Source of the DNA: Rhodoblastus acidophilus
GTDB taxonomy: Bacteria; Pseudomonadota; Alphaproteobacteria; Rhizobiales; Beijerinckiaceae
Direction of reading: 5' to 3'
Length of the DNA: 64,000 bases
Assembly: GCF_025961575.1 (NCBI RefSeq)
Contig: NZ_JAOQNX010000006.1
Coordinates: forward strand, 1-64,000
The notes under the pieces are model-generated. The model saw nothing but the letters and a program-made list of their open reading frames with translations. It had not been told where the DNA came from and made no database searches. The stretch's first letter is position 1; each line of letters starts with the position of its first letter. Position numbers and translations under genes: made by a program. Shown here piece by piece: positions 40,471-58,983 of this stretch.

Positions 40471-41154
40471 TCACGGCGCATCCCCCGCGGCGATCATCCG
40501 ATAATGTCGCGCCAGGGCGAAAAGGCCCCGGCGCAGGATGAACAATGCGACGGCCCCGGCCATTTTGGCGTCGCGATAAGCGCCGATCTCCCGCCCGACG
40601 TCGACGATTTCCCGGTCCTCGAGAACGATGGCGGCCAGAGGCGCTCGAAAATCCTCGGGGATCGCGTCGCGCGCGGCCCAAAACCTTTGCAGCGCTTCCA
40701 GTTGCGACTCGCTGCGCCACATGGCGCCCGGCGCATAGTCGGCGCCAACCTCCCGGGTCGGGTCCAGCGAATGTAGCGGATCGAGTCCGGAGCGAAAGAA
40801 CATGTGCCGGTATTTTTCGCCCGCCAGCGCCAGCGCCCAGTTGCGCGCCTTGTCGTCGCGGTCGAGTTGCCCCCGGTCGCGCAGCCGCGCCAGCGGCCCG
40901 TCGTCAATGCGCATGCGGACGAAATCCACCGCCACCGCCTCGAACGTGTCGCCGCGCGCCACCTCCACCACTTCGGAAAATCTTTCGATATGCGCGGCGT
41001 CGCCGGCCCGCAGGAGGCGCTCGACGCTGGGCCCTTCCACGGCGCGGGATCCGGCGCGATGAAAGGCTTTGAGCATTTTGCGCGCCCCCGCGCCGGTCTC
41101 GTCGAGACAGGAGAGTTTGGGCAGCGACACCTTGGTCTTGCGCGGTCTGGCCAT
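40471..41154 (-). CDS. hypothetical protein under the phage repressor region
   Basis: 227 residues from ATG 41154, with AAGGA eight bases before it; the longer upstream frame is a shadow. Not recognised. It is helical and acidic/basic mixed (LERFSEVVEVARGDTFEA-like central part, DKARNWALALAGEKYRHMFF, PLAAIVLEDREIVDVGREIG). It lies 11 bp downstream of another unknown gene and both are transcribed away from the S24 repressor, where early or lysogenic-control phage genes are expected. Confidence 0.6.
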   Translation of the reverse strand: MARPRKTKVSLPKLSCLDETGAGARKMLKAFHRAGSRAVEGPSVERLLRAGDAAHIERFSEVVEVARGDTFEAVAVDFVRMRIDDGPLARLRDRGQLDRDDKARNWALALAGEKYRHMFFRSGLDPLHSLDPTREVGADYAPGAMWRSESQLEALQRFWAARDAIPEDFRAPLAAIVLEDREIVDVGREIGAYRDAKMAGAVALFILRRGLFALARHYRMIAAGDAP

Positions 41155-41165
41155 GGCGACATCCT

Positions 41166-41675
41166 TCAGGGCGCGGCGAATTCGGTGAGGGTGAGAGCCA
41201 GCTCGCCGCCAAGCCCGCCATAGCTGACCGAAAACCGATCGGGCGAAAGACCGTGGGTGATCACCCGGCAGCGCGTCAGCAGTTCGATCAAAGGCCGCTC
41301 CAGCACGCCGAAATGGCGGGTGCGCGCGGTGCGGGGCGCGACGATTTCGAGCGCATAGGCGCCGGACATCCGCCCCGGCTTTTGCGCGATCACCCGCCGC
41401 GCCGCCTCGTCCAGCCATTGCTCGAAGGCCTCGGAGCGGACATAGCTCGCGCCATTATGCACATAGAGCTGCGCGGCGGCGGGCGGCGGCGGCGTCTTGA
41501 TCTCGATCTTGCGCGCCACGGGGCGCGGCTCGGCGGCGAGGCCGAAACGCCCGGTTTTCGGCGCGGCGGCGCGCGGCTTGGCCTTTTCGACCGTCACCGG
41601 CCGCGCGCCGGGGCGCGGCGTGAACACGTTCGCGGCGGAAAGGGCGAAACTGCTGAACGGAACGACATTTGTCAT
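41166..41675 (-). CDS. hypothetical protein divergent from the repressor
   Basis: 169 residues from ATG 41675. The first 60 residues are basic, Ala/Pro-rich and probably disordered. The C-terminal ~75 residues (GAYALEIVAPRTARTRHFGVL..., LIELLTRCRVITHG, GELALTLTEF) faintly recall RusA-type Holliday-junction nucleases in strand order, but the catalytic aspartates are absent, so this is not claimed as an assignment. Transcription would start from the promoter at 41722-41750, next to an operator-like site, so this is a likely direct target of the repressor. Confidence 0.6.
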   Translation of the reverse strand: MTNVVPFSSFALSAANVFTPRPGARPVTVEKAKPRAAAPKTGRFGLAAEPRPVARKIEIKTPPPPAAAQLYVHNGASYVRSEAFEQWLDEAARRVIAQKPGRMSGAYALEIVAPRTARTRHFGVLERPLIELLTRCRVITHGLSPDRFSVSYGGLGGELALTLTEFAAP

Positions 41676-41801: not shown

Positions 41802-42536
41802 ATGGACGACCAGTGGAAAAGCCGGCTCGAAGCCGAGATGGCGCGCCAGGGCCTCGACATGAAGGCCCTTTCGGTGCGCGCCGGTCTGGGCGAAACCTAT
41901 GTCCGCGACGCGCTCAAGCGCGGTCGCGGCGGTTCGCTGCCCGCGCTCAACAAGCTCGCCGGCGCTCTGGGGCGCTCGCTCGACTGGCTCATTGCGGGCA
42001 AGGAGACCGAGCGTGAGCCGCCGACCACGCGCCGCTTCGACACCAGCGTCGACCGCCGCCTCGTGGACAACAAGGAGACGCAGACCTCGACCATTTTCGA
42101 GGTCGACGTCCGCGCCGGCGCCGGCGGCGGCGGCGTCCCGATCGAGGCCTACGTCCACGACGAGAGCGGCAATTCCTATGCCGCTGCCGCGGTCGCCGCC
42201 GAATGGACTCTGCCGGAGACCATCGTCCAGGGCGTGCTGCATTCCGCGCCGCGCCACATCAGGGTTTTTGAGGTGATCGGCGATTCCATGGAGCCGCGCC
42301 TCTATGAAGGCGACCGCGTCTTCATCGACCTGCGCTACACCGTCCCGAGCCCCGAGGGCATTTTTGCCTTGTGGGACGGCTATGGCCTGGTGATCAAGCG
42401 CCTGCAGATCGTGATGGGCGCAGATCCCATGCGCGTCCGCATCATCTCGGTCAATTCCTCCTATGCGCCCTATGAAGCGGGCGCCGACGAAATCCGCATT
42501 GTCGGCCGCTTCGCCGGCCGTTTCACGGTCAACTGA
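41802..42536 (+). CDS. LexA/CI-like S24 phage repressor
   Basis: 244 residues. N-terminal XRE-type HTH (LEAEMARQGLDMKALSVRAG, ETYVRDALKRG), linker, and C-terminal S24 domain with nucleophile Ser162 (VIGDSMEP) and base Lys199 (GLVIKRL), 37 residues apart as in LexA. A potential self-cleavage Ala-Gly bond is in VDVRAGAGG (A105-G106). It would hold the element silent until RecA-stimulated cleavage. The gene is flanked by TGGG-N6-CCCA sites and by two outward promoters, so it is the likely master switch. No ribosome site is seen; O2 takes that space. Confidence 0.9.
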   Translation: MDDQWKSRLEAEMARQGLDMKALSVRAGLGETYVRDALKRGRGGSLPALNKLAGALGRSLDWLIAGKETEREPPTTRRFDTSVDRRLVDNKETQTSTIFEVDVRAGAGGGGVPIEAYVHDESGNSYAAAAVAAEWTLPETIVQGVLHSAPRHIRVFEVIGDSMEPRLYEGDRVFIDLRYTVPSPEGIFALWDGYGLVIKRLQIVMGADPMRVRIISVNSSYAPYEAGADEIRIVGRFAGRFTVN

Positions 42537-42706: not shown

Positions 42707-42816
42707 TATCCATGTTGAAGATTTGCGCCCGGCGGCGCTTCGTCCCCAAACGAAGCGCCCCGGGCTTTGCTTTGCCCGGTCCTTCGGGCCGAGGCCGAGC
42801 GGGAAATGGATGGACC

Positions 42817-43299
42817 ATGGCGTCGGCTCCCCGCGGAAGAACAACCACAAGGCAGAAGGCGCAAGCTCCGGAACACCCCCTCGACCGCGTCAGCCGCGAC
42901 CTCGCCATTCTCAACATGCGCCTCCACGGGCTCACCTTTTTCGAGATCGCCAGAAAACTCCCGGAGGCCGGTTTTAAGCGCGTCTCGGTGAGCCGCGTCT
43001 ACGCCATTGTCGCCAAGGCGCTGCGCTCCAGCCCGCACGCCCCCGCCCGCGACCTGCGCGATCTCGAACTGATGCGCCTCGACCAGTTGCAGACCGCCCA
43101 TTACAAACAGGCGCTGAAGGGCGACGCCGCCGCCGCCCAGCGCGTGCTGGCCATCATCGACCGCCGCGCCAAACTCCTCGGCCTCGACGCGAGCCTTGAG
43201 GCCGAAACCTCGCTCGAGGACGCGCGGAAAACCCTGATTCAGAAACTCGAGCATCTCGCGCGCGGCCAGGGCCAAAAAGCCAAAAACGCCAAGAGTTAA
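42817..43299 (+). CDS. terminase small subunit-like protein
   Basis: 160 residues from ATG 42817; an in-frame ATG at 42712 would lie on the promoter start point and is less likely. A homeodomain-type HTH (RLHGLTFFEIARKLPEAGFKRVSVSRVYAIVAKAL, of which the core is LTFFEIARKL) is followed by a helical tail (ALKGDAAAAQRVLAIIDRRAKLLGL), as in small terminases of GTA-like phages. It lies 9 bp before the large terminase. It likely recognises packaging DNA. Confidence 0.72.
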   Translation: MASAPRGRTTTRQKAQAPEHPLDRVSRDLAILNMRLHGLTFFEIARKLPEAGFKRVSVSRVYAIVAKALRSSPHAPARDLRDLELMRLDQLQTAHYKQALKGDAAAAQRVLAIIDRRAKLLGLDASLEAETSLEDARKTLIQKLEHLARGQGQKAKNAKS

Positions 43300-43308
43300 G
43301 TCTGCGCC

Positions 43309-44739
43309 ATGCGTCCCCTCCCAACGCATGCGCGTGAGCTGGCGCGCCTCACCCCCCGTGAGCGCGCCCTTTTTTTTGACAGCCTCGACGCGGACGAGCT
43401 GGAATCGCTCAAAACCCTTTGGCCGTTTTGGGCGCGTCCGGAGCAGCTCATTCCCGAAGGCGATTGGGTCTATTGGCTTCCGCTCGCCGGTCGCGGCTGG
43501 GGCAAAACGAGGGTTGGGGCCGAAACCGTGCGCCAATGGGCGCGTGAGTTCGGCATGGTCAACCTGATCGGCGCGACCGCCGATGATGTGCGCGACGTAA
43601 TGGTTGAAGGCGAATCCGGCGTGCTGGCGTCCTGCCCGCGCGACGAACGCCCTCGCTACGTCGCGCACAGACGCAGGCTCGAATGGCCCAATGGCGCCAA
43701 GAGTCTCTTGTTTTCCGCCGAGGAGCCCGAGCGCCTCAGAGGCAAGCAGCATCAAAAACTCTGGTGCGACGAAATCGCGGCCTGGCGATATCCCGAGGCT
43801 TGGGATCAGGCACTGTTCGGCCTGCGCCTGGGAACAAAACCGCAGGCCATCCTCACCACCACGCCGCGCCCGACAAAGCTGATGCGCGACCTCTTGGCCG
43901 ACCCGCTGACGCATTCCACCCGCCACTCCACCTTCGAAAACATCGGCAATCTCGCCGAAAATTTTCTGGACCGCGTGGTGCGCAAATACGAGGGCACGCG
44001 TCTCGGCCGCCAGGAATTGCATGCTGAAATGCTCCTGGACGTTCCCGGCGCGCTCTGGACGCGCGCCCTGCTCGAACAGGCGCAAATCGGCTACCCACCC
44101 CCCCGTCCTGAAGAGTCTGTTCAGCAAGCGTCGAGAAGCCCTCATCCTGAGGAGCCGCCGCAGGCGGCGTCTCGAAGGACGAGGACGCAACTCACCCGCA
44201 TCGTCGTCGCCATCGATCCGCCCGCCACCTCCGGGGAGAACGCCGACGAATGCGGAATGGTCGTTGCGGGTCTCGACGAGACCCGCAACGTTCATATCCT
44301 CGCCGACCTCTCGCGCCAGGGCGAAACCCCGCTGGGCTGGGCTACCCGCGCCGTCGAAGCTTTTAGAAATTTCGAAGCCGATTGCATCGTCGCCGAAGTC
44401 AACAATGGCGGCGAGATGATCGAAACGCTGTTGCGCCAGATCGACGCCAACATTCCTTACCGCGCGGTCCGCGCCAGCCGAGGCAAATTCGCCCGCGCCG
44501 AACCGGTCGCCGCCCTTTACGAACAGGGTCGTGTCAAACATTGCGGCGTCTTTGCAAAACTCGAAGACCAGATGTGCGCCATGACGCCCGATTTTGATCG
44601 GACGCGAACCGGCTATTCCCCCGACCGCGTCGACGCCCTGGTCTGGGCGGTCACGGCGCTGGCGCTCAGCCAGGAAAGCGGCGGCGCTGTCTTCGAATTC
44701 TACCGCACCCTGGCGGGAGAACAGAGTGGCGTGGGATGA
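43309..44739 (+). CDS. terminase large subunit
   Basis: 476 residues. ATPase domain: Walker A LAGRGWGKTRVG (~59-70), Walker B LWCDEIAAW (~151-159), coupling motif TTTPRPTKLM. RNase H-like nuclease domain from about residue 300 with IVVAIDPPAT, AEVNNGGEMIE and YSPDRVDALVWAV (third acidic site). It packages DNA into the capsid. Residues ~265-293 (PRPEESVQQASR, PHPEEPPQAASR) are two tandem copies of a palindromic repeat translated in frame, placed precisely in the linker between both domains; see the repeat feature. It is GTA/HK97-group like. Confidence 0.9.
   Translation: MRPLPTHARELARLTPRERALFFDSLDADELESLKTLWPFWARPEQLIPEGDWVYWLPLAGRGWGKTRVGAETVRQWAREFGMVNLIGATADDVRDVMVEGESGVLASCPRDERPRYVAHRRRLEWPNGAKSLLFSAEEPERLRGKQHQKLWCDEIAAWRYPEAWDQALFGLRLGTKPQAILTTTPRPTKLMRDLLADPLTHSTRHSTFENIGNLAENFLDRVVRKYEGTRLGRQELHAEMLLDVPGALWTRALLEQAQIGYPPPRPEESVQQASRSPHPEEPPQAASRRTRTQLTRIVVAIDPPATSGENADECGMVVAGLDETRNVHILADLSRQGETPLGWATRAVEAFRNFEADCIVAEVNNGGEMIETLLRQIDANIPYRAVRASRGKFARAEPVAALYEQGRVKHCGVFAKLEDQMCAMTPDFDRTRTGYSPDRVDALVWAVTALALSQESGGAVFEFYRTLAGEQSGVG
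44104..44186 (+). repeat. two tandem palindromic repeats inserted in the terminase gene
   Basis: Copy A (44104-44137, CGTCCTGAAGAG...CGTCGAGAAG) and copy B (44139-44186) share the layout TCCTGARGAG-core-GCGTCxxGAAG. Copy B has complementary ends, CCTCATCCT and AGGACGAGG. The length keeps the reading frame and encodes PEE-QASR twice. Confidence 0.7.
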
Positions 44740-44864: not shown

Positions 44865-46220
44865 ATGACCGAACGCGGCGCGGGCTTGCCACGCTGGTCC
44901 CTTTCGCCTGCGGAATTTTCCGCCCGCGCCAAAGCGAGCGCGCAGGCGCCCGACGACTGGTTCGGCCCCTCCACCCCACAAAATCCTGGCGCCCCGAGCG
45001 ATGTCGCCGGCCGCCAGTGGGATTTCCCGGCCGGCTACAACCTTTCCATACGCGCGAGAGGCTATGAGTCGATCTCCTTCGCCGACTTGCGCGCGCTGGC
45101 CGACGCTTACGACCTGTTGCGCCTCGTCATCGAGACGCGCAAGGACCAGGTCGAGCGCATGAATTGGACGGTTCGCGCAAAAGCCGGCCGCCACGCCGAC
45201 CCCGCCGAACTCGCCCGCGTCGAAACTTTTTTGCAGAGCCCCGATGGCGCCCATGACTGGAACGCCTGGCTGCGCATGATCCTCGAAGACCTGTTTGTCA
45301 TCGACGCCCCCGCGCTCTGGTGCGAGCGCGACCGCGCCGGCAATTTGTTGGGCCTGCACCCGCTCGACGGCGCCACCATCAAACCGGTGCTCGATTTCTG
45401 GGGCCGCACCCCGCGCCTCTTCACCGAAAACGGCAAAACCGTCCACCCCGTCGCCTACCAGCAAATTCTAAAAGGCCTGCCGGCGGTCGACTATACCGCG
45501 CGCGACATCATCTATCGCCCGCGAAATGTCCGCAGCCATCGCGCCTACGGTTTTTCCCCGGTCGAACAAATCATCGCCACGGTCAACATCGGCCTGAAGC
45601 GGCAACTGCACCAACTCAACTATTACACCGAGGGCAACATCCCTGAGAGCCTGATTGGCGTCCCCGACAGCTGGACCCCCGACCAGATCAAGAATTTCCA
45701 GGACTATTGGGACCTCTATTTCGATGGCGACTTGGCGAGGCGCCGGCGGGCAAAATTCGTCCCCGGCGGCGTCGCCAAGACTTTTATTCAGACCCGCGAG
45801 CCCGAGCTGAAAAACGCGTTCGACGAATGGATCGCCCGCGTGGTCTGCTTCGCCTTTTCGGTGTCGCCGCAACCCTTCATCAACCAGATGAACCGCTCGA
45901 CCAGCGAGACGCAGACGCAAATGTCCAGCGAGGAGGGCCTGCAACCCATCCTCGCCTGGATCAAGCGCCTCTGCGACTCCATCATCACGCAACTCGGCGC
46001 GCCAAACCTTGAATTCGCCTGGCGCACGGACGCCGTGGTCGACCCCACGGTCCAGCGTGAAAACCTGGTCGCTTTGGTCAATGCGGGAATGATGACCCGC
46101 CGCCGCGCCGCCCAAATTTTGGGAGAAACACTCCCCAACGATCCCATGGCCGACGTCCTGACGGTCACGACAGGGCAGGGCGCCAAGCCGCTCGCGGGCT
46201 CAGCCGAGAATGTCCCTTAG
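44865..46220 (+). CDS. phage portal protein
   Basis: 451 residues. ADAYDLLRLVIETRKDQVE and LRMILEDLFVIDAPALWCERD are characteristic of DUF935/GTA-type portals. IIYRPRNVRSHRAYGFSPVEQI and FVPGGVAKTFIQ, then MNRSTSETQTQMSSEEGLQP follow. Twelve copies would form the DNA-entry ring. The gene starts 125 bp after the terminase, with the palindromic repeat in between, and its last 21 bp overlap the convergent hisC. Confidence 0.85.
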   Translation: MTERGAGLPRWSLSPAEFSARAKASAQAPDDWFGPSTPQNPGAPSDVAGRQWDFPAGYNLSIRARGYESISFADLRALADAYDLLRLVIETRKDQVERMNWTVRAKAGRHADPAELARVETFLQSPDGAHDWNAWLRMILEDLFVIDAPALWCERDRAGNLLGLHPLDGATIKPVLDFWGRTPRLFTENGKTVHPVAYQQILKGLPAVDYTARDIIYRPRNVRSHRAYGFSPVEQIIATVNIGLKRQLHQLNYYTEGNIPESLIGVPDSWTPDQIKNFQDYWDLYFDGDLARRRRAKFVPGGVAKTFIQTREPELKNAFDEWIARVVCFAFSVSPQPFINQMNRSTSETQTQMSSEEGLQPILAWIKRLCDSIITQLGAPNLEFAWRTDAVVDPTVQRENLVALVNAGMMTRRRAAQILGETLPNDPMADVLTVTTGQGAKPLAGSAENVP

Positions 46221-47258
46221 CCCCCCGATCAAGCGATCGGTCTGCTCCGCGGTCCCGACAGTAATCCGCAGATAGTCGGCGATGCGCGGGGCATCGAAAC
46301 GCCGCACCAGCACCGCCCGCTCGCGCAACCCTTGCGCCAACGCGGCGCCGCCCACCGCCCGGTGCCGCGCGAACACAAAATTCGCGCTCGACGGTAACAC
46401 CTCGAAACCAAGCTCCACCAGCGCCGCAGTCATCCGCCCGCGCTCAGCCACAATCGTCGCCAACCCCGCCTGAAAATATGCATCATCCTCGACCGATGCG
46501 ATGGCCCCGGCCTGGGCGATGCGCCCGACCGGATAGGAATTGAAACAGTTTTTCACACGAGAAAGCGCCTCGATCAGCCCGGCGTCGCCAATCGCATAGC
46601 CAACCCGCAACCCCGCCAGCGCCCGCGATTTAGAAAACGTCCGCACCACCAGCAAATTCGGGAACTGCGATATCAGCGGAGTCGCGGTCTCGCCGCCGAA
46701 ATCGACATAAGCCTCGTCCACCACCACGGGAATGGAAGGATTGGCCGAAACCATCCGCGCCACCTCGTCGCGCGACAGGGCGATGCCGGTGGGCGCATTG
46801 GGATTGGCGAACACGATGGCCCCCGCCGAATTCCGGCAGAAATCGTCCACCCGAATCCGCATGCCCTCATCGACCGCCGCCGTCTCATAGGCGACATCAT
46901 AAAGCTTCGCCCAAACCGGATAGAACGAGTAGGTCACATCGGGCGCAAGCAAGGGACGGTCATGCTTCAGCAGCGCGACGAACACATGCGCCAAAACCTC
47001 GTCGGAACTGTTGCCGACAAACACATTTGACGGCGCCACTCCATGATAGCGGGCGAGCGTCTCCCGCAAGGCGACTGACTCGGGATCGGGATAAAGCCGC
47101 AGCGAATCCGCAGCCGCCTCGCGCATGGCCTCGACCGCGCGCGGTGAGGGCGGAAGCGGCGATTCATTGGTGTTGAGTTTTACAAGCCCCTCAATGCGCG
47201 GCTGTTCGCCGGGCGTGTAGGGGCTCAAACCGCGCGCCTTGTCGCTCCAGAAATCCAT
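46200..47258 (-). CDS. hisC: histidinol-phosphate aminotransferase, antisense in phage operon
   Basis: 352 residues, full length. LVKLNTNESPLPPSP (start motif), YPDPESVALRETLA, VFVGNSSDEVL, FANPNAPTGIALS (Asn), VVVDEAYVDF (Asp/Tyr) and RTFSKSRALAGLRVGYAIG with PLP lysine Lys210 are all intact, so it is likely functional in histidine synthesis (imidazole-acetol phosphate to histidinol phosphate). It is transcribed against the structural genes, overlapping the portal by 21 bp and 99 bp from the protease start. No phage capsid function is known for this family; it is presumably a cargo gene. Confidence 0.92.
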   Translation of the reverse strand: MDFWSDKARGLSPYTPGEQPRIEGLVKLNTNESPLPPSPRAVEAMREAAADSLRLYPDPESVALRETLARYHGVAPSNVFVGNSSDEVLAHVFVALLKHDRPLLAPDVTYSFYPVWAKLYDVAYETAAVDEGMRIRVDDFCRNSAGAIVFANPNAPTGIALSRDEVARMVSANPSIPVVVDEAYVDFGGETATPLISQFPNLLVVRTFSKSRALAGLRVGYAIGDAGLIEALSRVKNCFNSYPVGRIAQAGAIASVEDDAYFQAGLATIVAERGRMTAALVELGFEVLPSSANFVFARHRAVGGAALAQGLRERAVLVRRFDAPRIADYLRITVGTAEQTDRLIGGLRDILG

Positions 47259-47357
47259 CGTCCCGTCCCGTCACGCCGCGAGGAAAGCGGCGACGCCCTC
47301 CGTTTAGAAAAAATGCCCGGCCTCGTCAAAGGCGCGGCGAAAGCCAAAGGAGCCAAA

Positions 47358-48350
47358 GTGTCGGATCGACTGCAAATCTTCATCCCCCTCCGGAAAGCCG
47401 ACGCCGCCCAGCGCCTGGTCTACGGCTATGCGACGGCGGAATCCCCCGACCGCGCCGGCGAAATCTGCGATTACGCCAGCACCAAGCCGCAATACCAGGC
47501 CTGGTCGAAAACTTTCGCCAAGGCCACCGACGGCAGGAGCCTTGGCAATGTCCGCGCCATGCACGGCGCGGTGGCCGCCGGCAAGATCGCCTCGATTCGC
47601 TTCAACGATGCGGAAAAACGCATCGAAATCGCCGCGAAAATCATCGACGACGACGAATGGCGTAAGGTGGAGGAGGGGGTCTATACCGGCTTCTCCCAGG
47701 GCGGCGTCTATCTGAAACGCTGGCCCGACCCCGAAAACCCCGACCTCGTTCGCTACACCGCAAAACCCAGCGAAATCTCGCTGGTCGATCTCCCCTGCCT
47801 GCCGGAAGCCAGTTTCGAGCTGGTCAAGGCCGACGGCGCCTGCGAAACCCGCGCCTTCGCCCACAAAACCCCGAACGCGCTGCGCGACTGGCTGACGGGC
47901 AACATCGAAAACGGCGCCCCGGCCGCCGAGATCATCGGCGATTTCTTCGACGCCATCGCCCACGACATCAACGCCGACCCCATTCATGACGAACACATTT
48001 CGGTGCTGCTGTCGCGCCTGAAGAGCAAAGTGGTCGCCGCCATGCAGCCGCGTCCCGCGCAAAAATTCGCCGCCGACCCCCGCGTGGAGAAACTGAGCGC
48101 AGAGACGGATGCGTTGCGAAAGCTCACGGCGGATCTGCGCCCGAAACTGGCGGATCTCGCCGCCCGCATCGAGGCGCTGGAGCAGACGCCCGCGCCGCCG
48201 CCGCTCATTCCTGGTTACGCCGCAGTCTCCAAGTCGAGCGAAAGCGGCGGTCTCGAAGCGCTTGCAGCGGAACTCGCCCGCCTGTCGCCTGCCAAAGCCT
48301 CGCTGGTCCTCATCAAGGCCGCCCAGTCCCAGCCGAAGCGTTTCGGCTGA
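47358..48350 (+). CDS. XkdF-like prohead protease with C-terminal scaffold-like part
   Basis: 330 residues from GTG 47358, which has AAGGAG five bases before it; an ATG at 47313 without a ribosome site is an alternative. Residues 15-175 resemble XkdF-type prohead serine proteases: VRAMHGAVAAGKI (His), GVYTGFSQGGVYL (Ser), PSEISLVDLPCLPEASFELV. The remaining part is helical (VEKLSAETDALRKLTADLRPKLADLAARIEALE, coiled coil) and may act as scaffold. The capsid gene follows 34 bp later. Confidence 0.82.
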   Translation: MSDRLQIFIPLRKADAAQRLVYGYATAESPDRAGEICDYASTKPQYQAWSKTFAKATDGRSLGNVRAMHGAVAAGKIASIRFNDAEKRIEIAAKIIDDDEWRKVEEGVYTGFSQGGVYLKRWPDPENPDLVRYTAKPSEISLVDLPCLPEASFELVKADGACETRAFAHKTPNALRDWLTGNIENGAPAAEIIGDFFDAIAHDINADPIHDEHISVLLSRLKSKVVAAMQPRPAQKFAADPRVEKLSAETDALRKLTADLRPKLADLAARIEALEQTPAPPPLIPGYAAVSKSSESGGLEALAAELARLSPAKASLVLIKAAQSQPKRFG

Positions 48351-48384: not shown

Positions 48385-49893
48385 ATGACCGCTGTTCAGA
48401 ATGCGCTCGAATTGAAGGAAGCGATCCGCAAGTCGCAGATGAACCCGCTGAACGATCCGCGCTTCGCCAGTCTGGAAAAATCCACCTTCGCCGAGAGCGC
48501 CTCGGCGACCACCGGACTCACCTATTACGACCTGGAAGCCGGGGCCAAACTGCTGTTCCCGGTGCTGACGCCGCTGCGCAATTCGATCCCGCGCGTGTCC
48601 GGCAAGGGCGGCGTCCAGGCCGCTTGGCGCGCCATCACCTCGGTCAATTCCGCGGGCCTGCGCATCGGCGTCTCCGGCGGCAACCGCGGCGGCGTCGCCG
48701 CGATGACCACCAAGGACTATATCGCCAACTACAAGGGCCTGGGCATCGAAACCAGCGTCGATTTCGAAGCTCAATACGCCGGCCAGGGTTTTGATGACCT
48801 GCGCGCCCTGGCCGCGCAGACCGGCTTGGAAGCCCTGATGATCGGCGAAGAGGCGATGATCCTCGGTGGCAACGGCTCGCTGGCGCTGGGCACGACGGGA
48901 ACGCCGACGCTCGCCGCCGCGACCACCGGCGGTTCGCTCGCCACCTCCACGCTCTCGGTGATCGCCGTCGCCCTGACCCACGAAGGCCTGATCAACGCCT
49001 CCGTCAGCGGCGGCATCCAGGCGCAGATCACCCGCACCAACGCGGACGGAAGTTCCGACTCCTTCGGCGGCGGCGCGGCGCGGAAGTCGGCCAACGCCAC
49101 CGTCAGCGTCACCGGTCCGACCGGCGCCGTCACCGCCTCCGTCACCGTCAAGTCCGGCGCTGCGGGATATGCGTGGTTTTGGGGCGCGGCGGGCTCCGAA
49201 CTGCTCGGCGCCATCACCACCATCAATTCCGTGGTCATCACCGCGACCGCGACGGGGACGCAGACTGCCGCCTCGCTGCCGGCCGCGGACTGGTCGGTCA
49301 ACGCGCTCGCTTTCGACGGCCTGCTGACCCAGGCTTTCACCACTGGCTCGGGCTCGCTGATCGTGACGCAACCGGACGGCGTCGCCGGAACCGGCACGCC
49401 GCTGACCGCCGACGGCGCCGGCGGCATCGTCGAAATCGAGAACGTGCTCAAGAGCAATTGGGACAATTTCCGCCTGTCACCCGACGAAGTCTGGGTGTCC
49501 TCGCAGGAGGCGATGAACATTTCGAAAAAGGTGTTGTCCGCCGGCTCCAACGCGGCGCAGCGCTTCCTGTTCGACGCGCGCAACGACGCCTTCGCCGGCG
49601 GCGTGATGGCGACGACCTACAAGAACAAATATTCGATGGCCGGCGCCAAGTCGCTCGACATCAAGATTCACCCCAACATGCCCGCGGGAACCATGCTGTT
49701 CCTCACGCGCCAGCTGCCCTATCCGCTGGCCAATGTCGGCAACGTCATCCAGATGCGCACCCGCCAGGACTACTATCAGATCGAATGGCCGCTGCGCGCG
49801 CGCCGCTACGAATATGGCGTCTATGCCGACGAAGTGCTTCAGCACTATTTCCCGCCGTCCATTTCGGTGATCACCAATATCGGCAACGGCTGA
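48385..49893 (+). CDS. major capsid protein
   Basis: 502 residues from ATG 48385. SATTGLTYYDLEAGAKLLFPVLTPLR, GGNRGGVAAMTTKDYIAN, then GFDDLRALAAQTGLEALMIGEEAMILGG, and DIKIHPNMPAGTMLFLTRQLPYP are typical of this class of HK97-fold capsids. A central Thr/Ser/Ala-rich, beta-predicted insertion (~170-330: ATVSVTGPTGAVTASVTVKSG) looks like an Ig-like decoration domain within the capsid fold. It is the strongest expressed gene by position and is followed by a canonical terminator. Confidence 0.86.
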   Translation: MTAVQNALELKEAIRKSQMNPLNDPRFASLEKSTFAESASATTGLTYYDLEAGAKLLFPVLTPLRNSIPRVSGKGGVQAAWRAITSVNSAGLRIGVSGGNRGGVAAMTTKDYIANYKGLGIETSVDFEAQYAGQGFDDLRALAAQTGLEALMIGEEAMILGGNGSLALGTTGTPTLAAATTGGSLATSTLSVIAVALTHEGLINASVSGGIQAQITRTNADGSSDSFGGGAARKSANATVSVTGPTGAVTASVTVKSGAAGYAWFWGAAGSELLGAITTINSVVITATATGTQTAASLPAADWSVNALAFDGLLTQAFTTGSGSLIVTQPDGVAGTGTPLTADGAGGIVEIENVLKSNWDNFRLSPDEVWVSSQEAMNISKKVLSAGSNAAQRFLFDARNDAFAGGVMATTYKNKYSMAGAKSLDIKIHPNMPAGTMLFLTRQLPYPLANVGNVIQMRTRQDYYQIEWPLRARRYEYGVYADEVLQHYFPPSISVITNIGNG

Positions 49894-49963: not shown

Positions 49964-50152
49964 ATGAAATTTCAGGCTCCTCCCGGGGTCACCGCGCTCT
50001 CCAGCGCGGGCGAGGAAATCATTCCCGACGCCCAAGGATATTTCGAGGCCGACGAAACGCGCGCGAGCGCCCTTCTCGCCCATGGCTGCATTCCCGCGCC
50101 GGACGTCGAACCGCCGCCGGCGAAAAGCAAGAACAAGCGGAAAGTAGATTGA
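49964..50152 (+). CDS. small hypothetical head protein
   Basis: 62 residues, MKFQAPPGVTALSSAGEEIIPDAQ, then FEADETRASALLAHGCIPAPD and a basic tail. It has the length and position of small head proteins found between capsid and connector in siphophages; no detailed function. It ends 3 bases before the connector gene. Confidence 0.65.
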   Translation: MKFQAPPGVTALSSAGEEIIPDAQGYFEADETRASALLAHGCIPAPDVEPPPAKSKNKRKVD

Positions 50153-50154
50153 CC

Positions 50155-50964
50155 ATGGCGCGAGGCGATCTCGTTTCCCTGAGCGCGCTCAAAGCTCATC
50201 TCGGCATCCAATCCAGCGCCGACGACATTTTGTTGTCGAGCATGATCAGCCAGATCAGCCGAGCGATCTGCACCTGGCTCAATCGCGCCTTCCTCTGGCC
50301 GCGCGATGTCACCGACATTTTCGACGGCAACGGCCGCAACCGCATCCAGTTGCGCAACTGGCCCGTCGTGTCCGTCGCCTCGGTGAGCATCGACGGACAG
50401 AAGATTCCACAATCCAGCGATGGCCAAAGTTCTGGCTGGGTGCTCGAACCTGGCGACGACGAACCGCCGGGCGCCATGCAGATGGTCATGCTGCGCGGCG
50501 GCGTTTTTTCGCGCGGCTGGCAAAATGTCGCCATCGCCTATCGCGCCGGCTACCAGATCAGCAAGGAGCAGCAGACGGTCCCGGCCGCGGGGGCGCGGAT
50601 CGCCGCCCTGCAGCCCTACGGCCCCTTCGCGGTCGATTGCGGCGTCGCCTATGCGTCCGGCGCCGCCCTCACGCCGGTCGCCGCCAATCCGGCGCGCGGC
50701 CAATATGTGGTCGACAGTTTTGGCGACTACGCTTTCGCGGCCGCAGACGCGGGCGCACAGGTGCTCCTCACCTACGGCTACGTGCCCCACGATCTCGCCG
50801 CCTGCGCCCTCGAATGGGCGGCTGATCGCTACCGTCACCGCGACCGGATCGGCATGGTGTCAAAAAGTCTGGGTGGGCAGGAAACCGCCGCCTATCGCAT
50901 CACCGCCATGCCGGATTTTGTGCAGCAAAGCCTGCGCAACTTCGGCCGCATCATCGCGAATTGA
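50155..50964 (+). CDS. head-tail connector protein
   Basis: 269 residues from ATG 50155. LSALKAHLGIQSSADDILLSSMISQISRAICTWLNR begins like the gp6/YqbG-type connector (phage_QLRG domain), with AALEWAADRYRHRDRIGM near the end. The central part (50-190) is beta-rich and larger than usual. It presumably joins the portal to the tail. It follows the small 62-residue gene and precedes the gp10-like gene by 1 base. Confidence 0.75.
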   Translation: MARGDLVSLSALKAHLGIQSSADDILLSSMISQISRAICTWLNRAFLWPRDVTDIFDGNGRNRIQLRNWPVVSVASVSIDGQKIPQSSDGQSSGWVLEPGDDEPPGAMQMVMLRGGVFSRGWQNVAIAYRAGYQISKEQQTVPAAGARIAALQPYGPFAVDCGVAYASGAALTPVAANPARGQYVVDSFGDYAFAAADAGAQVLLTYGYVPHDLAACALEWAADRYRHRDRIGMVSKSLGGQETAAYRITAMPDFVQQSLRNFGRIIAN

Positions 50965-51921: not shown

Positions 51922-51945
51922 GCGCCACCACAAGGAGCCATGTTC

Positions 51946-52704
51946 ATGCCAAGCACAACTTCCGTCGCTTTCGGCTCGGGCGTTCTCATCGCCACGCCGT
52001 CGGGCGCCAATGCGACGCCGGTGCAGTTCGGCGCGCTCCAGGACGTCACGCTCGATTTCAGCTTTTCGTCGAAACAATTGTTCGGCCAGTACCAATTCCC
52101 CATCGCCTTCGCGCGCGGCGAGGGCAAGATCAGCGGCAAGGCGAAATTCGCCAATATCGACGGCCCTCTCTACAATTCCTGCTTTTTCGGCCAGACGCTC
52201 GCGGCCGGGCAAAAACTCTGGTCCTATAACGAGGCTGGCGCGGTCGCCTCGTCCTCGCCCTATACCTATGCGACGGCCAACGCCTCCGCCTTCGACGCCG
52301 ATCTCGGCGTGGTCTATGCGTCGAGCGGCCTCGCCCTCACGCGCGTCGCCACCGCCCCCGCCGTCGGCCAGTACACGCTTGCCGCCGGCGTCTACACTTT
52401 CAATTCGGGCGATTCTGGCAAGGCCATTCTGGTTTCCTATTCCTACACCCAGACCGCCGCCGGCTCCGGCACGCGCGCGGTTCTGTCCAATAAGCTGATG
52501 GGCGCCGCCCCGACCTTTCAGATTGATTTCTATCAGAGCAACGCCAACGCCACGGCCGGGCAATGGTCGCTGCGCCTCTACAATTGCGTGTCGACCAAAC
52601 TGACGGTGGCGACGAAAATTCAGGATTTCGGCATTCCCGAGCTCGACTTCGAGGCCTTCGCCAATGCGGCGAACAATCTCGGCGAAATCAACACGGCGAT
52701 CTGA
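51946..52704 (+). CDS. major tail tube protein
   Basis: 252 residues from ATG 51946, eight bases after AAGGAG; an ATG at 51940 is only two bases after the site. Beta-rich protein with FGALQDVTLDFSFSSKQLFGQ (typical start of GTA/TP901-type tube proteins) and GKISGKAKFANIDGPLYN. An inner repeat-like region (YTLAAGVYTFNSGDSGKAILVSY) resembles an Ig-type addition. It stacks to build the tail tube. Confidence 0.8.
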   Translation: MPSTTSVAFGSGVLIATPSGANATPVQFGALQDVTLDFSFSSKQLFGQYQFPIAFARGEGKISGKAKFANIDGPLYNSCFFGQTLAAGQKLWSYNEAGAVASSSPYTYATANASAFDADLGVVYASSGLALTRVATAPAVGQYTLAAGVYTFNSGDSGKAILVSYSYTQTAAGSGTRAVLSNKLMGAAPTFQIDFYQSNANATAGQWSLRLYNCVSTKLTVATKIQDFGIPELDFEAFANAANNLGEINTAI

Positions 52705-54516: not shown

Positions 54517-56997
54517 ATGGCGCAAGTTTTTGGCGTTTGCCTGCTCCCGGCCACGGGCGAGTTCACCTATGACACGCTGCCGGCGCAGGGCAAGAAATCC
54601 ACGGCGAGCGCTTATTCGCCCATCAACGCCTACCTCGTCCCCAATGGGACGAAATCGGATTATTCCTACGCGCTCGACCAGCTCGCGGCGGCGCATCCGG
54701 AATGCCAGACGGTGGCTCTGGTCTGCGCCTGGTTCGGCGATTCCACCGACGCTGCGACCTGCAAGATCTATCCCGCGACGAATTACATCGGCGGCGCCTT
54801 CCAGATTTGCGTCAACAATGTCTGGTCCGCGTCGAACTGGAACGTGTCCGGCCTGACGCAAACCTCGTCCGGCCTCATTCCGATCTCGACCGACAGCGGC
54901 TCCGCGGTCTATGGCGGCACGCCTTCCGATCAAAGCGTCGTGCGCTGTATCCGCGATCTGCGCGCCAGAGGCTATCGCGTCGTCTTCTACCCGTTCATCC
55001 TGATGGATGCGCCGGGAAAGCCCTGGCGCGGCCGCATCGGCCTCGCCACGGACCTGAGCGCCACGACAACGCAAGCCATCCAAAAATTCCTCGGCGCGGC
55101 GACCGCAACGCAATTCACGCGCGACGCCACGAACCTGACGGTCGCCTATAGCGGCTCGCCGACTGACTTCACCTATCGCCGCTTCATCCTGCACTATGCA
55201 AATCTTTGCGCAGTCGCGGGCGGCGTCGATCTCTTCCTGATCGGCTCGGAATTGCGCGGCCTCGAAATCTTGCGCGGGCCGAATTGGACGCCCGCCGGAA
55301 CCACCGACGCCAACGGTCGCGCCCAATGGGATTATCCATTCGTCGCCGGCCTGACCCAACTCGCGGCCGATGTGCGCGCCATCTTCGACGGCGCGGGTTT
55401 GTCGCGCGACACGACCAACCATAAGAACCTGATCGCCTATTCCCCAGACTGGTCGACCTGGAACGGTTGCCAGCACCCTGGCGCCAACGGGCAATGGCCG
55501 CATCTCGACCAATTGTTCGCATCCCCAAACATCGATCTGGTCGCCTTCGACAATTACCTGCCGCTGTCCGACTGGACGCTCGGCGATGGCGGCCTCGACT
55601 GCCATAACTGGAGCGCGCCCGCGCCAAAAACCTGGCCGCCGGCGCCTGCGGAAATGAACGGCCTCGCTCTGCCCGGCCAACCCACGCTGCGCAACGCCCA
55701 TTATCTCGCCGCCAATATCGAGGGGGGCGAGGGCTTCAACTGGTTTTATTATAGCAGCGACACGAACGGCGTCGGCCTCGACCCGCTTGGCACCGACCAG
55801 CGCTGCACCCGCCCCAGCGGCGATCGCCTCACACAGACGCGTCACGCCTTTGCCGCCAATCAGCAATTGCTGATGCGAAAAGGCCTGCGCTGGTGGTGGA
55901 ACAACACGCATCACGCCGTCTACGACAACGGCGATGGAACCGGCTGGAGCCCGCATGGACCGGCGACGGCTTGGGTTCCTCAGTCAAAACCAATCGTCTT
56001 CGCCGAATACGGCTTTGCCAGCGTGGACCGTTGCACCAACCAGCCCAACGTTTTCTACGATGCGAGATCAAGCGAAAGCGCTACGCCGTTCTGGTCGCTG
56101 TGGAGCGGCGCGATCGGCATCGGATGGAAGCCCCTTCGCGATGACGCCCTCGCCGATCTCGCCCTGCAAACCGTTTACGATTACTGGAGCGCGAACAACG
56201 CAACGTCCTCGGCGGGCGTCCCGATGCTCCTCACATCGTTCTGCTGCGCCTGGAACTGGGACGCGCGCCCGTTCCCGGCCTTTCCGCTCGACACGGACGT
56301 TTGGGGCGACGGCGGCAACTGGGCGACAGGCAATTGGATTGCAGGCAAGGGGCCGTCGTCCGCGCCGCCAACGCCCGACGCTCCGCCCGCGCCGAAAAAC
56401 GTCGTCGCCTTTCCCATTCTCAGGGGGCAGGGCTGGAACGCGAAATACAGGCCCTATTTCATCACCCGAGTCCACGCGCATACGAGCGGCCGGGAAGTGC
56501 GCGCCGCGCGCCGCATCAATCCGCTGTACGACATCGAGCTGACCTTCGATCTGCTGCGCGGTGACGCCGCCAATGCGGAGATGCAGGCGGTCATCGCCTT
56601 CATCGCCGCCCACGCTGGCCAAGCAGAGGCCTTCCTGTTCGCTCCGCCCCAAAACCTCGGCCAAGTCGCAAGCGCCACGGTCGGCGTTGGCGACGGGGTC
56701 ACCAAAACCTTTGTTTTGACCCGGGGCGTCAGCGGCTTCACCGAAACCGTCCAGGCGCTGATCGGTTCGCCGACGGTCTACATCGACGGCGTCGTACAGT
56801 CTGCCGGCGCCTACGCCCTGTCGATTCTGCCGGCGACGCTCACCTTTGTCATCCCCCCCGCGCCCGGCGCCGCCGTGACGGCGGATTTCACCGCCGCGCA
56901 TCTCGCGCGCTTCGTCGATGACGCCTTGGAGCTCGAGCAATTCATGACCGATCTCTGGGAAACAAAGACCCTCAAACTGGAAACGGTGCGCGCGTGA
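54517..56997 (+). CDS. GTA TIM-barrel protein fused to DUF2460
   Basis: 826 residues. Residues ~1-610 are a GTA_TIM-type glycoside-hydrolase-like barrel: FLIGSELRGLEILRG (~245), LIAYSPDWSTWNGCQHPGA, VAFDNYLPLSDWTLG and KPIVFAEYGFASVDRC (~490-505), with acidic residues at strand ends as in hydrolases. From ~627 a DUF2460 domain begins (VVAFPILRGQGWNAKYRPYF, HAHTSGREVRAARRINPLY, QFMTDLWETKTLKLE). In RcGTA these are separate proteins (gp15 N-terminus and gp12). The stop overlaps the next gene, itself a DUF2460, by 4 bases. It may digest surface glycans. Confidence 0.85.
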   Translation: MAQVFGVCLLPATGEFTYDTLPAQGKKSTASAYSPINAYLVPNGTKSDYSYALDQLAAAHPECQTVALVCAWFGDSTDAATCKIYPATNYIGGAFQICVNNVWSASNWNVSGLTQTSSGLIPISTDSGSAVYGGTPSDQSVVRCIRDLRARGYRVVFYPFILMDAPGKPWRGRIGLATDLSATTTQAIQKFLGAATATQFTRDATNLTVAYSGSPTDFTYRRFILHYANLCAVAGGVDLFLIGSELRGLEILRGPNWTPAGTTDANGRAQWDYPFVAGLTQLAADVRAIFDGAGLSRDTTNHKNLIAYSPDWSTWNGCQHPGANGQWPHLDQLFASPNIDLVAFDNYLPLSDWTLGDGGLDCHNWSAPAPKTWPPAPAEMNGLALPGQPTLRNAHYLAANIEGGEGFNWFYYSSDTNGVGLDPLGTDQRCTRPSGDRLTQTRHAFAANQQLLMRKGLRWWWNNTHHAVYDNGDGTGWSPHGPATAWVPQSKPIVFAEYGFASVDRCTNQPNVFYDARSSESATPFWSLWSGAIGIGWKPLRDDALADLALQTVYDYWSANNATSSAGVPMLLTSFCCAWNWDARPFPAFPLDTDVWGDGGNWATGNWIAGKGPSSAPPTPDAPPAPKNVVAFPILRGQGWNAKYRPYFITRVHAHTSGREVRAARRINPLYDIELTFDLLRGDAANAEMQAVIAFIAAHAGQAEAFLFAPPQNLGQVASATVGVGDGVTKTFVLTRGVSGFTETVQALIGSPTVYIDGVVQSAGAYALSILPATLTFVIPPAPGAAVTADFTAAHLARFVDDALELEQFMTDLWETKTLKLETVRA

Positions 56998-57596
56998 GCC
57001 CTCCCATCTTCCCGACCCTCCCCGGCCAGGGCTGGAGCATCAAGAAGACGCCGAGCTTTTCGACCCGCGTCGCCTCGCACGCCTCTGGACGCGAGGTGCG
57101 CGCGTCGCTCTATGCTCATGCGCTCTACCAGTTCGAGTTGTCCTTCGACGCCCTGGACTCCAGCGGCGCCAACGCCAGCCTGCAAGCCAAATCGCTGCAA
57201 ACGCTCATGGGGTTTTGGCTGACCTGCGGCGGCCAGCAGGGAACCTTTCTCTACGTCGACCCGACCGACAATGTGGTCTCCGCCCAGGTCATCGGCACGG
57301 GCGACGGCGTGAGCAAGCGCTTCACCTTCGGTCGCTCGATCGGCGGCTATTTCGAGCCGGTGAGCTACGTCACTGCGGTCAGCAGCGTGACAACCGCCGG
57401 CGCGGCGACTTCCGCCTACACGCTCACGGCGCCGAACCTGATCGACTTCTCAACGGCCCCTGCGAATGGCGCGCCGATCGCCGCCAGTTTCGCTTACGCC
57501 TTCCAGTGCCGGTTCCTCGAAGACCAGGCCGAATTCGAAAACTTCGCCTCCGGTCTCTGGAAGATCGACGGCCTGAAATTCCGTCAGGTGCGCTGA
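56994..57596 (+). CDS. DUF2460 tail protein (GTA gp12-like)
   Basis: 200 residues. IFPTLPGQGWSIKKTPSF, RVASHASGREVRASLYAHAL and EFENFASGLWKIDGLKFRQVR define the family; members form the distal tail ring. It is paralogous to the C-terminal domain of the preceding gene (shared GQGW, SGREVRA, final K-L motif). The GTG start overlaps that gene's stop. Confidence 0.88.
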   Translation: MSPPIFPTLPGQGWSIKKTPSFSTRVASHASGREVRASLYAHALYQFELSFDALDSSGANASLQAKSLQTLMGFWLTCGGQQGTFLYVDPTDNVVSAQVIGTGDGVSKRFTFGRSIGGYFEPVSYVTAVSSVTTAGAATSAYTLTAPNLIDFSTAPANGAPIAASFAYAFQCRFLEDQAEFENFASGLWKIDGLKFRQVR

Positions 57597-58505
57597 ATGA
57601 AATCCGCTCCCGCCGCCCTCATCACCTACCTCAACGGCTTGCGCCCGACATCGGACGCCCCGCTGCTCACGGCCGAATGTTTTACAATCTGGCTGTCGAC
57701 GGGCGCGATCCTGACCTACACCGATCTCGACACCTCCGTTGCGCTGAACGGTTTCACCTATCTCGCCAACTCAGTTCTGATCTCCGGTCTGAAATACAAG
57801 GCGAGCTGCGGCGTCAACGTCGACAGCCAGCAGGTGATGATGTTTGCAAGACCGACCGACACGATCGGCGGCATCCCGTTTCTCCAGGCGGTGCAGCAGG
57901 GCGTGCTCGATGGCGCCGCGATCCAGCGCGAAAAAGTGTTTTTCAGCGATTGGAGCACGCCGATCGGCTCCGTCATCCTGTTCAAGGGACGCGTTGCCCA
58001 GATTGACGCGATCGGCCGCGTCAGCGCCCAGGTCACCGTCGCCTCGGACATGGTGCTGCTGGATATCGACATGCCCCGCAACGTTTACCAGGCCGACTGC
58101 CAGCACGTCCTCTACGATGCGCAATGCGGCCTCGCGGCGGGAACCTATTCAACGGCGGGCGCGGTCGGCGCGGGATCGACACAGACCGCCATCATGTGGA
58201 GCGCCGCCGCTCCGGAATACCAGCAGGGCACCATCGCCTTCACTTCCGGCGCCAACACGGGCGCCAATTTGACGATCAAGTCCGCCGGTGAAGGCCGTCT
58301 GGTCCTATCCTATCCGCTGCCCTATCCGCCGGCGACAGGCGACGCCTTCGTCGCCACTTACGGCTGCGACCGCACCATGGGCACATGCAAGGATCGCTTC
58401 AACAATCTTTGCAAGTTCAGAGGGTTTCCGTTCGTGCCGCCGCCGCAGATCGTCACGGGACCGCTGTCGTCGGTCACCAGCGGCAGCGCCAAGGGCGGAA
58501 AGTAA
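57597..58505 (+). CDS. DUF2163 tail hub protein (GTA gp13-like)
   Basis: 302 residues starting at ATG 57597, directly after the previous stop. Family features: FTIWLSTGAILTYTDLD, DSQQVMMFARPTD, VILFKGRVAQIDAIGR and the Cys-rich tail GCDRTMGTCKDRFNNLCKFRGFPFVP (BR0599 C-terminal domain), which probably binds an iron-sulfur cluster or metal in gp13. Together with NlpC/P60 and gp15 it forms the baseplate. Confidence 0.9.
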   Translation: MKSAPAALITYLNGLRPTSDAPLLTAECFTIWLSTGAILTYTDLDTSVALNGFTYLANSVLISGLKYKASCGVNVDSQQVMMFARPTDTIGGIPFLQAVQQGVLDGAAIQREKVFFSDWSTPIGSVILFKGRVAQIDAIGRVSAQVTVASDMVLLDIDMPRNVYQADCQHVLYDAQCGLAAGTYSTAGAVGAGSTQTAIMWSAAAPEYQQGTIAFTSGANTGANLTIKSAGEGRLVLSYPLPYPPATGDAFVATYGCDRTMGTCKDRFNNLCKFRGFPFVPPPQIVTGPLSSVTSGSAKGGK

Positions 58506-58524
58506 CGGCGGAAGGAGGACGCTC

Positions 58525-58980
58525 ATGCCCCAAGCCCATGAGCGCCAAAGCGTTGTCGCCGAGGCGCGCAAATGGCTGCTCACGCCCTATCGCCACGCCG
58601 CCGATATTCGCGGCGTCGGCGTCGATTGCGGCATGTTCATCGTGCGCGTGTTCGTGGATCTCGGCCTCACCCCGCCCTTCGATCCGCGTCCTTACGCGCC
58701 CGACTGGATGATCCATCGTAACGAAGAGAAATACCTCGAATTCTTCAATCGCCGTTGCAGGCGCGTTCAAGAACCGCGGCCCGGCGACATCGTCCTGTTC
58801 CGCTATGGCCGCAGCTATTCGCACGGCGGCATCGTGAGCGAGGCCGACCCGCTCGCGATCATCCACGCCTATCACGACGCTGGCTGCGTCGTCGAGGAAA
58901 GGCTGTCGCAAAATCCCGCCCTGACCGATCCCCGGCGCAAGCTCGCCTGGTTCTCGATCTGGCCCCAACCGGAGTTCTAG
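58525..58980 (+). CDS. NlpC/P60 cell-wall peptidase (GTA gp14-like)
   Basis: 151 residues from ATG 58525, preceded by GAAGGAGGAC. Catalytic Cys35 (GVDCGMFIVRVF), His101 (SYSHGGIV) and a downstream polar residue make up the papain-like triad. Member of the GTA gp14 group, which cleaves peptide cross-links of peptidoglycan during DNA entry. It stops 3 bases before the tail hub gene. Confidence 0.9.
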   Translation: MPQAHERQSVVAEARKWLLTPYRHAADIRGVGVDCGMFIVRVFVDLGLTPPFDPRPYAPDWMIHRNEEKYLEFFNRRCRRVQEPRPGDIVLFRYGRSYSHGGIVSEADPLAIIHAYHDAGCVVEERLSQNPALTDPRRKLAWFSIWPQPEF

Positions 58981-58983
58981 CCG

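Follow-up and report, generated by a model that had tools for sequence, protein, structure and literature searches.

Besides HisC itself, three described systems come closest to the locus analyzed here: alphaproteobacterial gene transfer agents (GTAs) of the RcGTA type; the metabolic genes that phages carry as morons or auxiliary metabolic genes; and the MuF polymorphic toxins of temperate phages. Passages from three papers on the last of these describe MuF proteins as being encoded beside the portal gene and carrying toxin tips (PMC5576092, PMC3482391, PMC11699363). Here we report that in a 64,000-nucleotide stretch of Rhodoblastus acidophilus DNA (the window, on contig C6 of the 4.91-Mb host genome, G000; G, C and L denote genomes, contigs and loci) a hisC gene, predicted to encode histidinol-phosphate aminotransferase, lies antisense between the portal and head protease genes of a phage-like element. 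Our preferred reading, to which we give a probability of roughly three-quarters (about 0.77), is that this is the housekeeping hisC of Rhodoblastus, residing inside a domesticated, vertically inherited GTA-like prophage which it would have entered at a cassette site before the genus radiated, replacing the usual hisC. Among the papers listed in PubMed Central on Rhodoblastus prophages or GTAs, and on hisC in prophages or as an auxiliary metabolic gene, none presents this arrangement in its title or in the opening of its abstract; the scope of this search excludes most subscription papers, so it does not prove that the arrangement is unpublished.

The gene is an open frame from an ATG start to a TGA stop. 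Its product exceeds the curated cutoff of the hisC equivalog family NCBIfam TIGR01141 (285.7 versus 276.55 bits) and aligns over nearly its full length with solved histidinol-phosphate aminotransferases (best match 3hdo, E 2.7e-52). Residues Y56, N154, D181, Y184, K210, R218 and R331, which we take to be the pyridoxal phosphate (PLP) and substrate-site positions expected in HisC, with K210 as the PLP lysine, are all present and are invariant in 12/12 Rhodoblastus hisC copies compared. The histidine pathway exists in the genus, since hisD was detected in 10/11 Rhodoblastus genomes and missed in the metagenome-assembled genome (MAG) G007. By score, site residues and pathway context, the window gene is therefore taken to be HisC, with predicted aminotransferase activity. 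Its GC content (0.631) is like that of its neighbors (0.634 to 0.657). The original prediction of an intact, full-length hisC with all catalytic residues, lying antisense between portal and protease and overlapping portal by 21 bp, thus holds in each of its parts.

This arrangement is shared across the genus. Locus-type hisC is present in all 11 Rhodoblastus genomes of the collection (73 to 100% identity), in 10 of them on one contig with the portal gene; in G007 the two genes are on two contigs, each ending inside the portal-hisC interval, and this contig break precludes an adjacency call. IMG/VR yielded 26 portal loci and 17 hisC loci, and all 15 of its portal loci of at least 76% identity hold hisC. 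As the original prediction had proposed to check, hisC occupies the same place in relatives, lying antisense between portal and protease in 19/19 distinct elements showing both genes. These elements correspond to 10 genomes and 9 viral contigs (isolates, MAGs and IMG/VR contigs), after removal of L104, L106, L113, L115 (a near-repeat), L126 and L127 as repeats of a counted genome and exclusion of G007, for its contig break, and of L145, with a partial hisC at a contig end. The distance between the hisC and protease starts is nearly constant as well: it spans 53-84 bp across all 19 distinct elements, 74 bp in G007, and 185 bp at a second hisC copy in G009 (lengths in relatives extrapolated to protease residue 1).

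Two ways had been named in which the prediction might fail. Misassembly at the junctions was rejected and is very unlikely, because 18 other distinct elements from independent assemblies (isolates, MAGs, IMG/VR) have the same order; the G006 locus lies within a 4.13-Mb contig, and nothing was found in favor of misassembly or contamination, whose chances we put at next to nil. The other was a sole host hisC around which phage genes had inserted in this strain alone. The locus copy is indeed often the sole strong one, but phage genes surround it in 10/11 genomes (G007 having the contig break), and a strain-specific insertion was discarded, with hisC in 11/11 genus genomes and the same order in 19/19 elements.

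At this position, hisC appears to have been inherited together with the head genes. Judging from the ratios of nonsynonymous to synonymous substitution rates (dN/dS) in 11 pairs, hisC is under purifying selection (0.08-0.18), with portal at 0.10-0.16 and capsid at 0.05-0.16. Pairwise identity of hisC tracks that of capsid, portal and protease (r 0.95, 0.97 and 0.97, respectively; 105 pairs, 15 elements), and between G008 and G004, G003 and G009 hisC is 75 to 76% identical, with left-flank host proteins at 65 to 87%. The right flank is imuB in seven genomes (G000, G001, G008, G004, G006, G002 and G009), six of which also have dnaE2, the G008 stretch ending before the dnaE2 position; in the remaining four genomes there is a contig end or the stretch does not reach that far. 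The left flank is common to G008, G004, G003 and G009 over about ten genes. No tyrosine integrase was found on C6, with 16 matches elsewhere in the genome (serine integrases were not searched). Given the imuB border in seven genomes and the lack of a tyrosine integrase on the contig, the element looks like a domesticated, GTA-like prophage. At L147:9295-14240, the element adjoins imuB and dnaE2, an SOS mutagenesis cassette, and the element has an S24-type repressor. The GTA_TIM domain was detected in 10/11 genomes, once in nine and as two pieces in G003; it was not found in G010, whose element contig ends early. The single GTA_TIM is on the element contig in 8/9 genomes and on another contig in G005. 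The search via GTA_TIM was aimed at a second GTA cluster in the genus, and it gave one copy in 9/11 genomes.

Related portals occur in 48/248 genomes and 9/43 genera of the family. We read the stretches around 26 of the 37 non-Rhodoblastus portals (6 of 60 kb, 20 of 6 to 20 kb), and none of the 26 held hisC on either strand. The protease lies within 20 of them and is missing from 6; in 10/26, portal is followed by protease at 44-261 bp, the remaining stretches having a longer portal-protease gap or a contig end. The six 60-kb stretches contain neither imuB nor dnaE2, indicating that those elements are at other places. Conjointly, the absence of hisC, the adjacency of portal and protease and the different sites argue that hisC entered the element rather than the element assembling around hisC, the uninterrupted portal-protease pair likely being the older state. 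Several outside elements are internally deleted, and in G061, G127 and G168 locus-type hisC and a related portal are both present, on different contigs. Among phage records, the closest portal is 51% identical (Brevundimonas phage), and one record bears the annotation "portal and MuF-like fusion protein"; the best hisC matches in the phage collection (52%) are two records labeled Acinetobacter phage MD-2021a, labels that are doubtful, followed by unannotated fecal contigs.

The origin of the gene can be approached from its relatives. The locus hisC type (at least 54% identity) is scattered over 25/248 family genomes in 8/43 genera. In G026, a genome 100% complete by estimate, it is the sole strong match to the window protein and has an ordinary chromosomal setting, and no conserved neighbor was noticed for locus-type hisC outside the element in 16 short loci (L162, L167 to L179, L028 and L029). 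None of the 11 Rhodoblastus genomes yielded the hisC type usual in the family; six of these (G002, G004, G006, G007, G008 and G010) show nothing else above about 110 bits against TIGR01141, and the locus copy is the top TIGR01141 scorer in every genus genome except G003. In a 38-row tree built from tblastn pieces, the locus copies group with G026 and G058, the order's usual hisC makes up a 14-row clade in which Rhodoblastus is not represented, and a third clade comprises the second strong copies found in G000, G001, G005 and G003. With the locus type scattered, the usual type not found and the locus copy often the sole one, the sequence pattern suggests replacement of the resident hisC by a foreign one. 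The second copy of the window's own genome (L010:1012-2565, on C10) encodes a HisC-like aminotransferase with an N-terminal dual-specificity phosphatase domain; its neighbors resemble, by eye, a sensor kinase and a LysR-type regulator, and its counterparts in G001 and G005 likewise lie in long frames.

That core structural operons are normally uninterrupted, as the original prediction had it, needs a caveat, in that the portal-protease junction is, from the gene content of the relatives, a cassette hot spot in this phage family. In many of them the portal open reading frame (ORF) is longer and has a variable C-terminal tip. In R. acidophilus DSM 137 (L068), this tip is a papain-fold Gln_amidase domain followed by an Imm35 gene, and DSM 142 (L067) has the same pair with the toxin-like frame split. 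Gln_amidase/Imm35 is the only toxin/immunity type recognized inside the genus, where most tips match no family: no family beyond portal ones was found in the portal ORFs of L110, L111, L114, L117, L121 and L069 (6/10 scanned together) or of L070 and L073, and none of the seven portal ORFs scanned from other Rhodoblastus genomes (L068, L070, L073, L069, L110, L111 and L114) gave a Mu F domain. Tips outside the genus match Tox-REase-5 (L120), CdiA-CT RNase A (L119), DUF6883 (L124) and the Mu F domain (L123). In L117 (2178-9959), a complete portal is accompanied by three orphan genes, whose tips match DUF6883, CdiA_C and Tox-REase-5; the first two orphans contain portal pieces by Pfam, the second below cutoff, and the third contains one by tblastn only. 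In L117, L119, L120, L123, L124, L068 and L108 the portal was seen as a carrier of interchangeable toxin tips, these loci also having orphan portal-fragment genes with other tips and likely immunity genes. Except for Imm35, the small genes downstream of portal are immunity-like by position only.

Across the 19 Rhodoblastus elements, the portal-hisC interval ranges from an overlap up to 4.4 kb, being at most 180 bp in five (the window, L105, L125, L074 and L072). A portal fragment lies in the interval in 8/19 (L069, L071, L072, L108, L109, L111, L114 and L155), and in four (L071, L072, L114 and L155) such a fragment reaches the hisC 3′ end or stops no more than about 30 bp from it. The overlapped, cassette-free form of the window recurs, with an overlap of the same kind, in L105, a near relative, and in L125, an element from a metagenome, and the simplest account of it would be cassette loss by recombination between portal repeats. 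A second cassette-like site was seen between terL and portal (L068:7411-9851, L070:5551-9775), with small ORFs that look repeated; L068:7411-8484, L070:5551-6771 and L070:6768-7154 gave no Pfam match.

Several findings weigh against the reading of hisC as a captured housekeeping gene. The gap upstream of hisC would have to contain or adjoin its promoter, and no sigma-70-like consensus promoter site for hisC was found in 45800-47700. A second strong hisC-like gene is present in 5/11 genomes, including the window's own, where it scores just below cutoff (272.6 bits) and is fused to the phosphatase domain; in G003, the second hisC (C61) scores 306.3 bits versus 305.3 for the locus copy. The possibility of another host hisC, raised in the original prediction, is thus realized in these five genomes and not in the other six, which have no other strong copy. 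In a second tree (26 locus-type sequences, including 12 added, plus four outgroup rows), the Rhodoblastus copies do not separate from G168 and G195; because of this, a single insertion is argued from the shared position and near-constant gap. Portal divergence rises at codons 401-450 in most of 13 pairs compared by windowed divergence, a rise so general that it is no proof of recombination in the window portal. The left flank shares just the nearest gene in G006 and differs in G000 and G001, which points to rearrangement. Finally, the G009 element has an internal deletion of the connector-to-tape-measure genes, and G009 carries a second hisC on another contig with part of the protease gene, so that this segment moved or was duplicated at least once. 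That second copy (L162, on the 3.9-kb contig C139) has 88% DNA identity to the locus copy; nearby are the beginning of the protease gene and a serine-recombinase-looking gene.

It is possible, if doubtful, that hisC is an accidental passenger of a decaying prophage, kept since it works, the phage genes being roleless and unlinked to it. The internal deletions in G009 and in several elements of other genera would fit this, as would the ordinary places in which locus-type hisC is found elsewhere; but across the 11 pairs the constraint on portal and capsid equals that on hisC, so that the element itself seems to be under selection. Another proposal, which we hold to be unlikely, is that hisC, being needed for growth, makes portal-to-capsid deletions lethal and so stabilizes the element together with the toxin cassettes. 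All 19 hisC elements have portal, protease and capsid (the capsid gene cut by a contig end in L110), and in some hisC-less elements capsid or protease is missing from a 60-kb stretch (G094, G068 and G239), yet at least 10 hisC-less elements keep all three genes, in a comparison of raw counts that is uncorrected for kinship and includes, among the 26 stretches, several ending at contig edges. A very improbable alternative is that hisC is a moron carried by an active temperate phage, raising the histidine supply of lysogens and moving between strains along with the phage. In its favor, the supposed cargo is a single gene, placed amid phage genes and oriented against the late operon, and both G009 copies adjoin protease sequence. 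No genus genome lacks the gene, however, and none of the 26 outside stretches has it; it is the sole strong HisC in 6/11 genomes, its identity is consistent with vertical divergence, and no tyrosine integrase was found on the contig, among searches that left out serine integrases. Between the two options of the original prediction, the domesticated element under host selection accordingly fares well, from the 11/11 occurrence, the hisC dN/dS range and the six genomes with a sole copy, and the mobile moron fares badly, from the 0/26 outside and a gene never missing in the genus.

If the housekeeping reading is right, a horizontally spreading hisC type would have inserted antisense between portal and head protease, at a polymorphic-toxin cassette site, before the genus radiation and most likely once. 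It would then have replaced the family's usual hisC and become the host HisC, and since then have been transmitted at a single chromosomal locus along with the head genes. The portal-hisC interval of most relatives holds portal extensions, toxin tips and small immunity-like genes; the window lacks them, and there portal 3′ repeats may have recombined with loss of the cassettes, which would account for the 21-bp overlap of portal and hisC. Transcription of hisC would start from its own promoter in or near the 54-bp gap. Once switched on, the late operon would be transcribed across hisC from the opposite side, so that the making of particles could conflict with histidine synthesis on one and the same piece of DNA. 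The particles that the element would make are presumably GTA-like. An extended version, which we consider distinctly unlikely, is that of a genus-wide domesticated phage made hard to delete by capturing the host's main or only HisC gene in its head operon, bordering an array of polymorphic toxins borne on portal, with portal-fused toxins delivered by the particles and hisC anchoring the element against repeat-driven deletions. Were the overall picture true, a core biosynthetic step of a genus would depend on a gene embedded in antisense among phage head genes, which would give a domesticated prophage a concrete means of resisting loss. The portal-fused cassette array would also carry the MuF theme described so far over to portal itself and raises the question of whether particles carry toxins.

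Table 1. Coordinates of hisC, its junctions and the element genes in the window
Feature	Position	Strand	Basis
Conserved gene, left element edge	40471..41418	-	Weak DUF6456 similarity, under cutoff
CI/LexA-like repressor, S24 peptidase domain	41802..42536	+	Peptidase_S24 2.9e-12; phrog_4 9.5e-32
Conserved gene preceding terL	42712..43299	+	phrog_645 2.1e-21 (PHROGs label "Rnase E"); kept in relatives
Terminase large subunit (terL)	43309..44739	+	Terminase_6N 6.5e-22; Terminase_6C 7.1e-22
Portal protein, 451 aa, lacking a toxin tip at the C terminus	44865..46220	+	Phage_portal PF04860 2.5e-17; phrog_2662 portal 1.5e-68
Tail-to-tail portal/hisC overlap, 21 bp, junction without cassette	46200..46220	.	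ORF coordinates
hisC, predicted histidinol-phosphate aminotransferase, 352 aa	46200..47258	-	TIGR01141, PDB matches, active-site residues
Divergent gap between hisC and protease starts, 54 bp	47259..47312	.	ORF coordinates
Head maturation protease	47313..48350	+	phrog_9427 head maturation protease 1.8e-8
Probable major capsid protein	48388..49893	+	Position; phrog_13692 6.6e-136, unknown function
Head-tail connector	50149..50964	+	PF05135 2.3e-6; phrog_442 2.1e-22
Probable tail tube protein	51940..52704	+	Position; phrog_8234 7.6e-56, unknown function
Short tape measure protein, 385 aa	53356..54513	+	phrog_12798 tail length tape measure 7.7e-15; no Pfam match
Tail protein, GTA TIM-barrel and DUF2460	54517..56997	+	PF13547 1.5e-95; PF09343 1.2e-27
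Second DUF2460 tail protein	56994..57596	+	PF09343 2.7e-38
Baseplate hub protein, Gp84_N and BR0599	57597..58505	+	PF09931 3.6e-31; PF09356 4.3e-24
Rcc01698-like tail protein	58984..61092	+	PF13550 1.5e-33; PF23666 3.3e-15
Tail fiber with Mtd_N domain	61107..62675	+	PF18454 1.1e-12; phrog_4492 1.1e-24

Some of these genes deserve comment (Table 1). The product of the gene preceding terL may be small-terminase-like, from its position. The window terminase is about 15 aa longer than that of R. acidophilus DSM 142, and a RSPHPEEPPQAASR stretch lies between the two terL domains (window about 44130-44220), perhaps an inserted repeat. The top match of the protease gene, phrog_21715 (1.7e-17), carries no function label, and there is no Pfam match. 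Window positions 58505-58984 contain no clear open frame, with G009 (L074) similar across the stretch; this is presumably the place where GTA-type tails have a peptidase gene.

Set against described systems, the window protein resembles HisC of the TIGR01141 family over its full length, in passing the curated cutoff and in its conserved active site, and the Rhodoblastus copy differs in lying antisense in a phage head cluster (10/11 genomes, with the G007 contig break) and in not being the family's usual type. As a single metabolic gene in opposite orientation within a phage cluster it is like morons and auxiliary metabolic genes; it departs from them in being kept across a host genus, often as the sole strong copy. 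Variable presence among related phages, by which morons are recognized, is not what was found (19/19 in the genus, 0/26 outside). The likeness to the MuF polymorphic toxins of temperate phages lies in a head protein whose C-terminal toxin domain varies and whose gene, within the packaging module, has immunity genes beside it (PMC5576092, PMC3482391, PMC11699363), and the toxins and immunity genes are interchangeable here also (Gln_amidase with Imm35, Tox-REase-5, CdiA-CT RNase A, CdiA_C). The present loci differ in that the tips are fused to portal itself, orphan portal-fragment genes hold other tips, and a Mu F domain is seen in one tip only (L123, outside the genus); the MuF-toxin passages drawn from those three papers do not describe portal-fused tips with orphan portal cassettes. 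With RcGTA-type GTAs, the element shares the GTA_TIM, DUF2460, BR0599, Rcc01698 and Phage-tail_3 tail families and a single chromosomal locus, and it differs in having a metabolic gene and toxin cassettes among its head genes; a search aimed at tyrosine integrases found none on its contig. As in GTAs, inheritance appears vertical at a fixed locus, with the imuB right flank in 7 genomes and divergence in step with the flanking host proteins.

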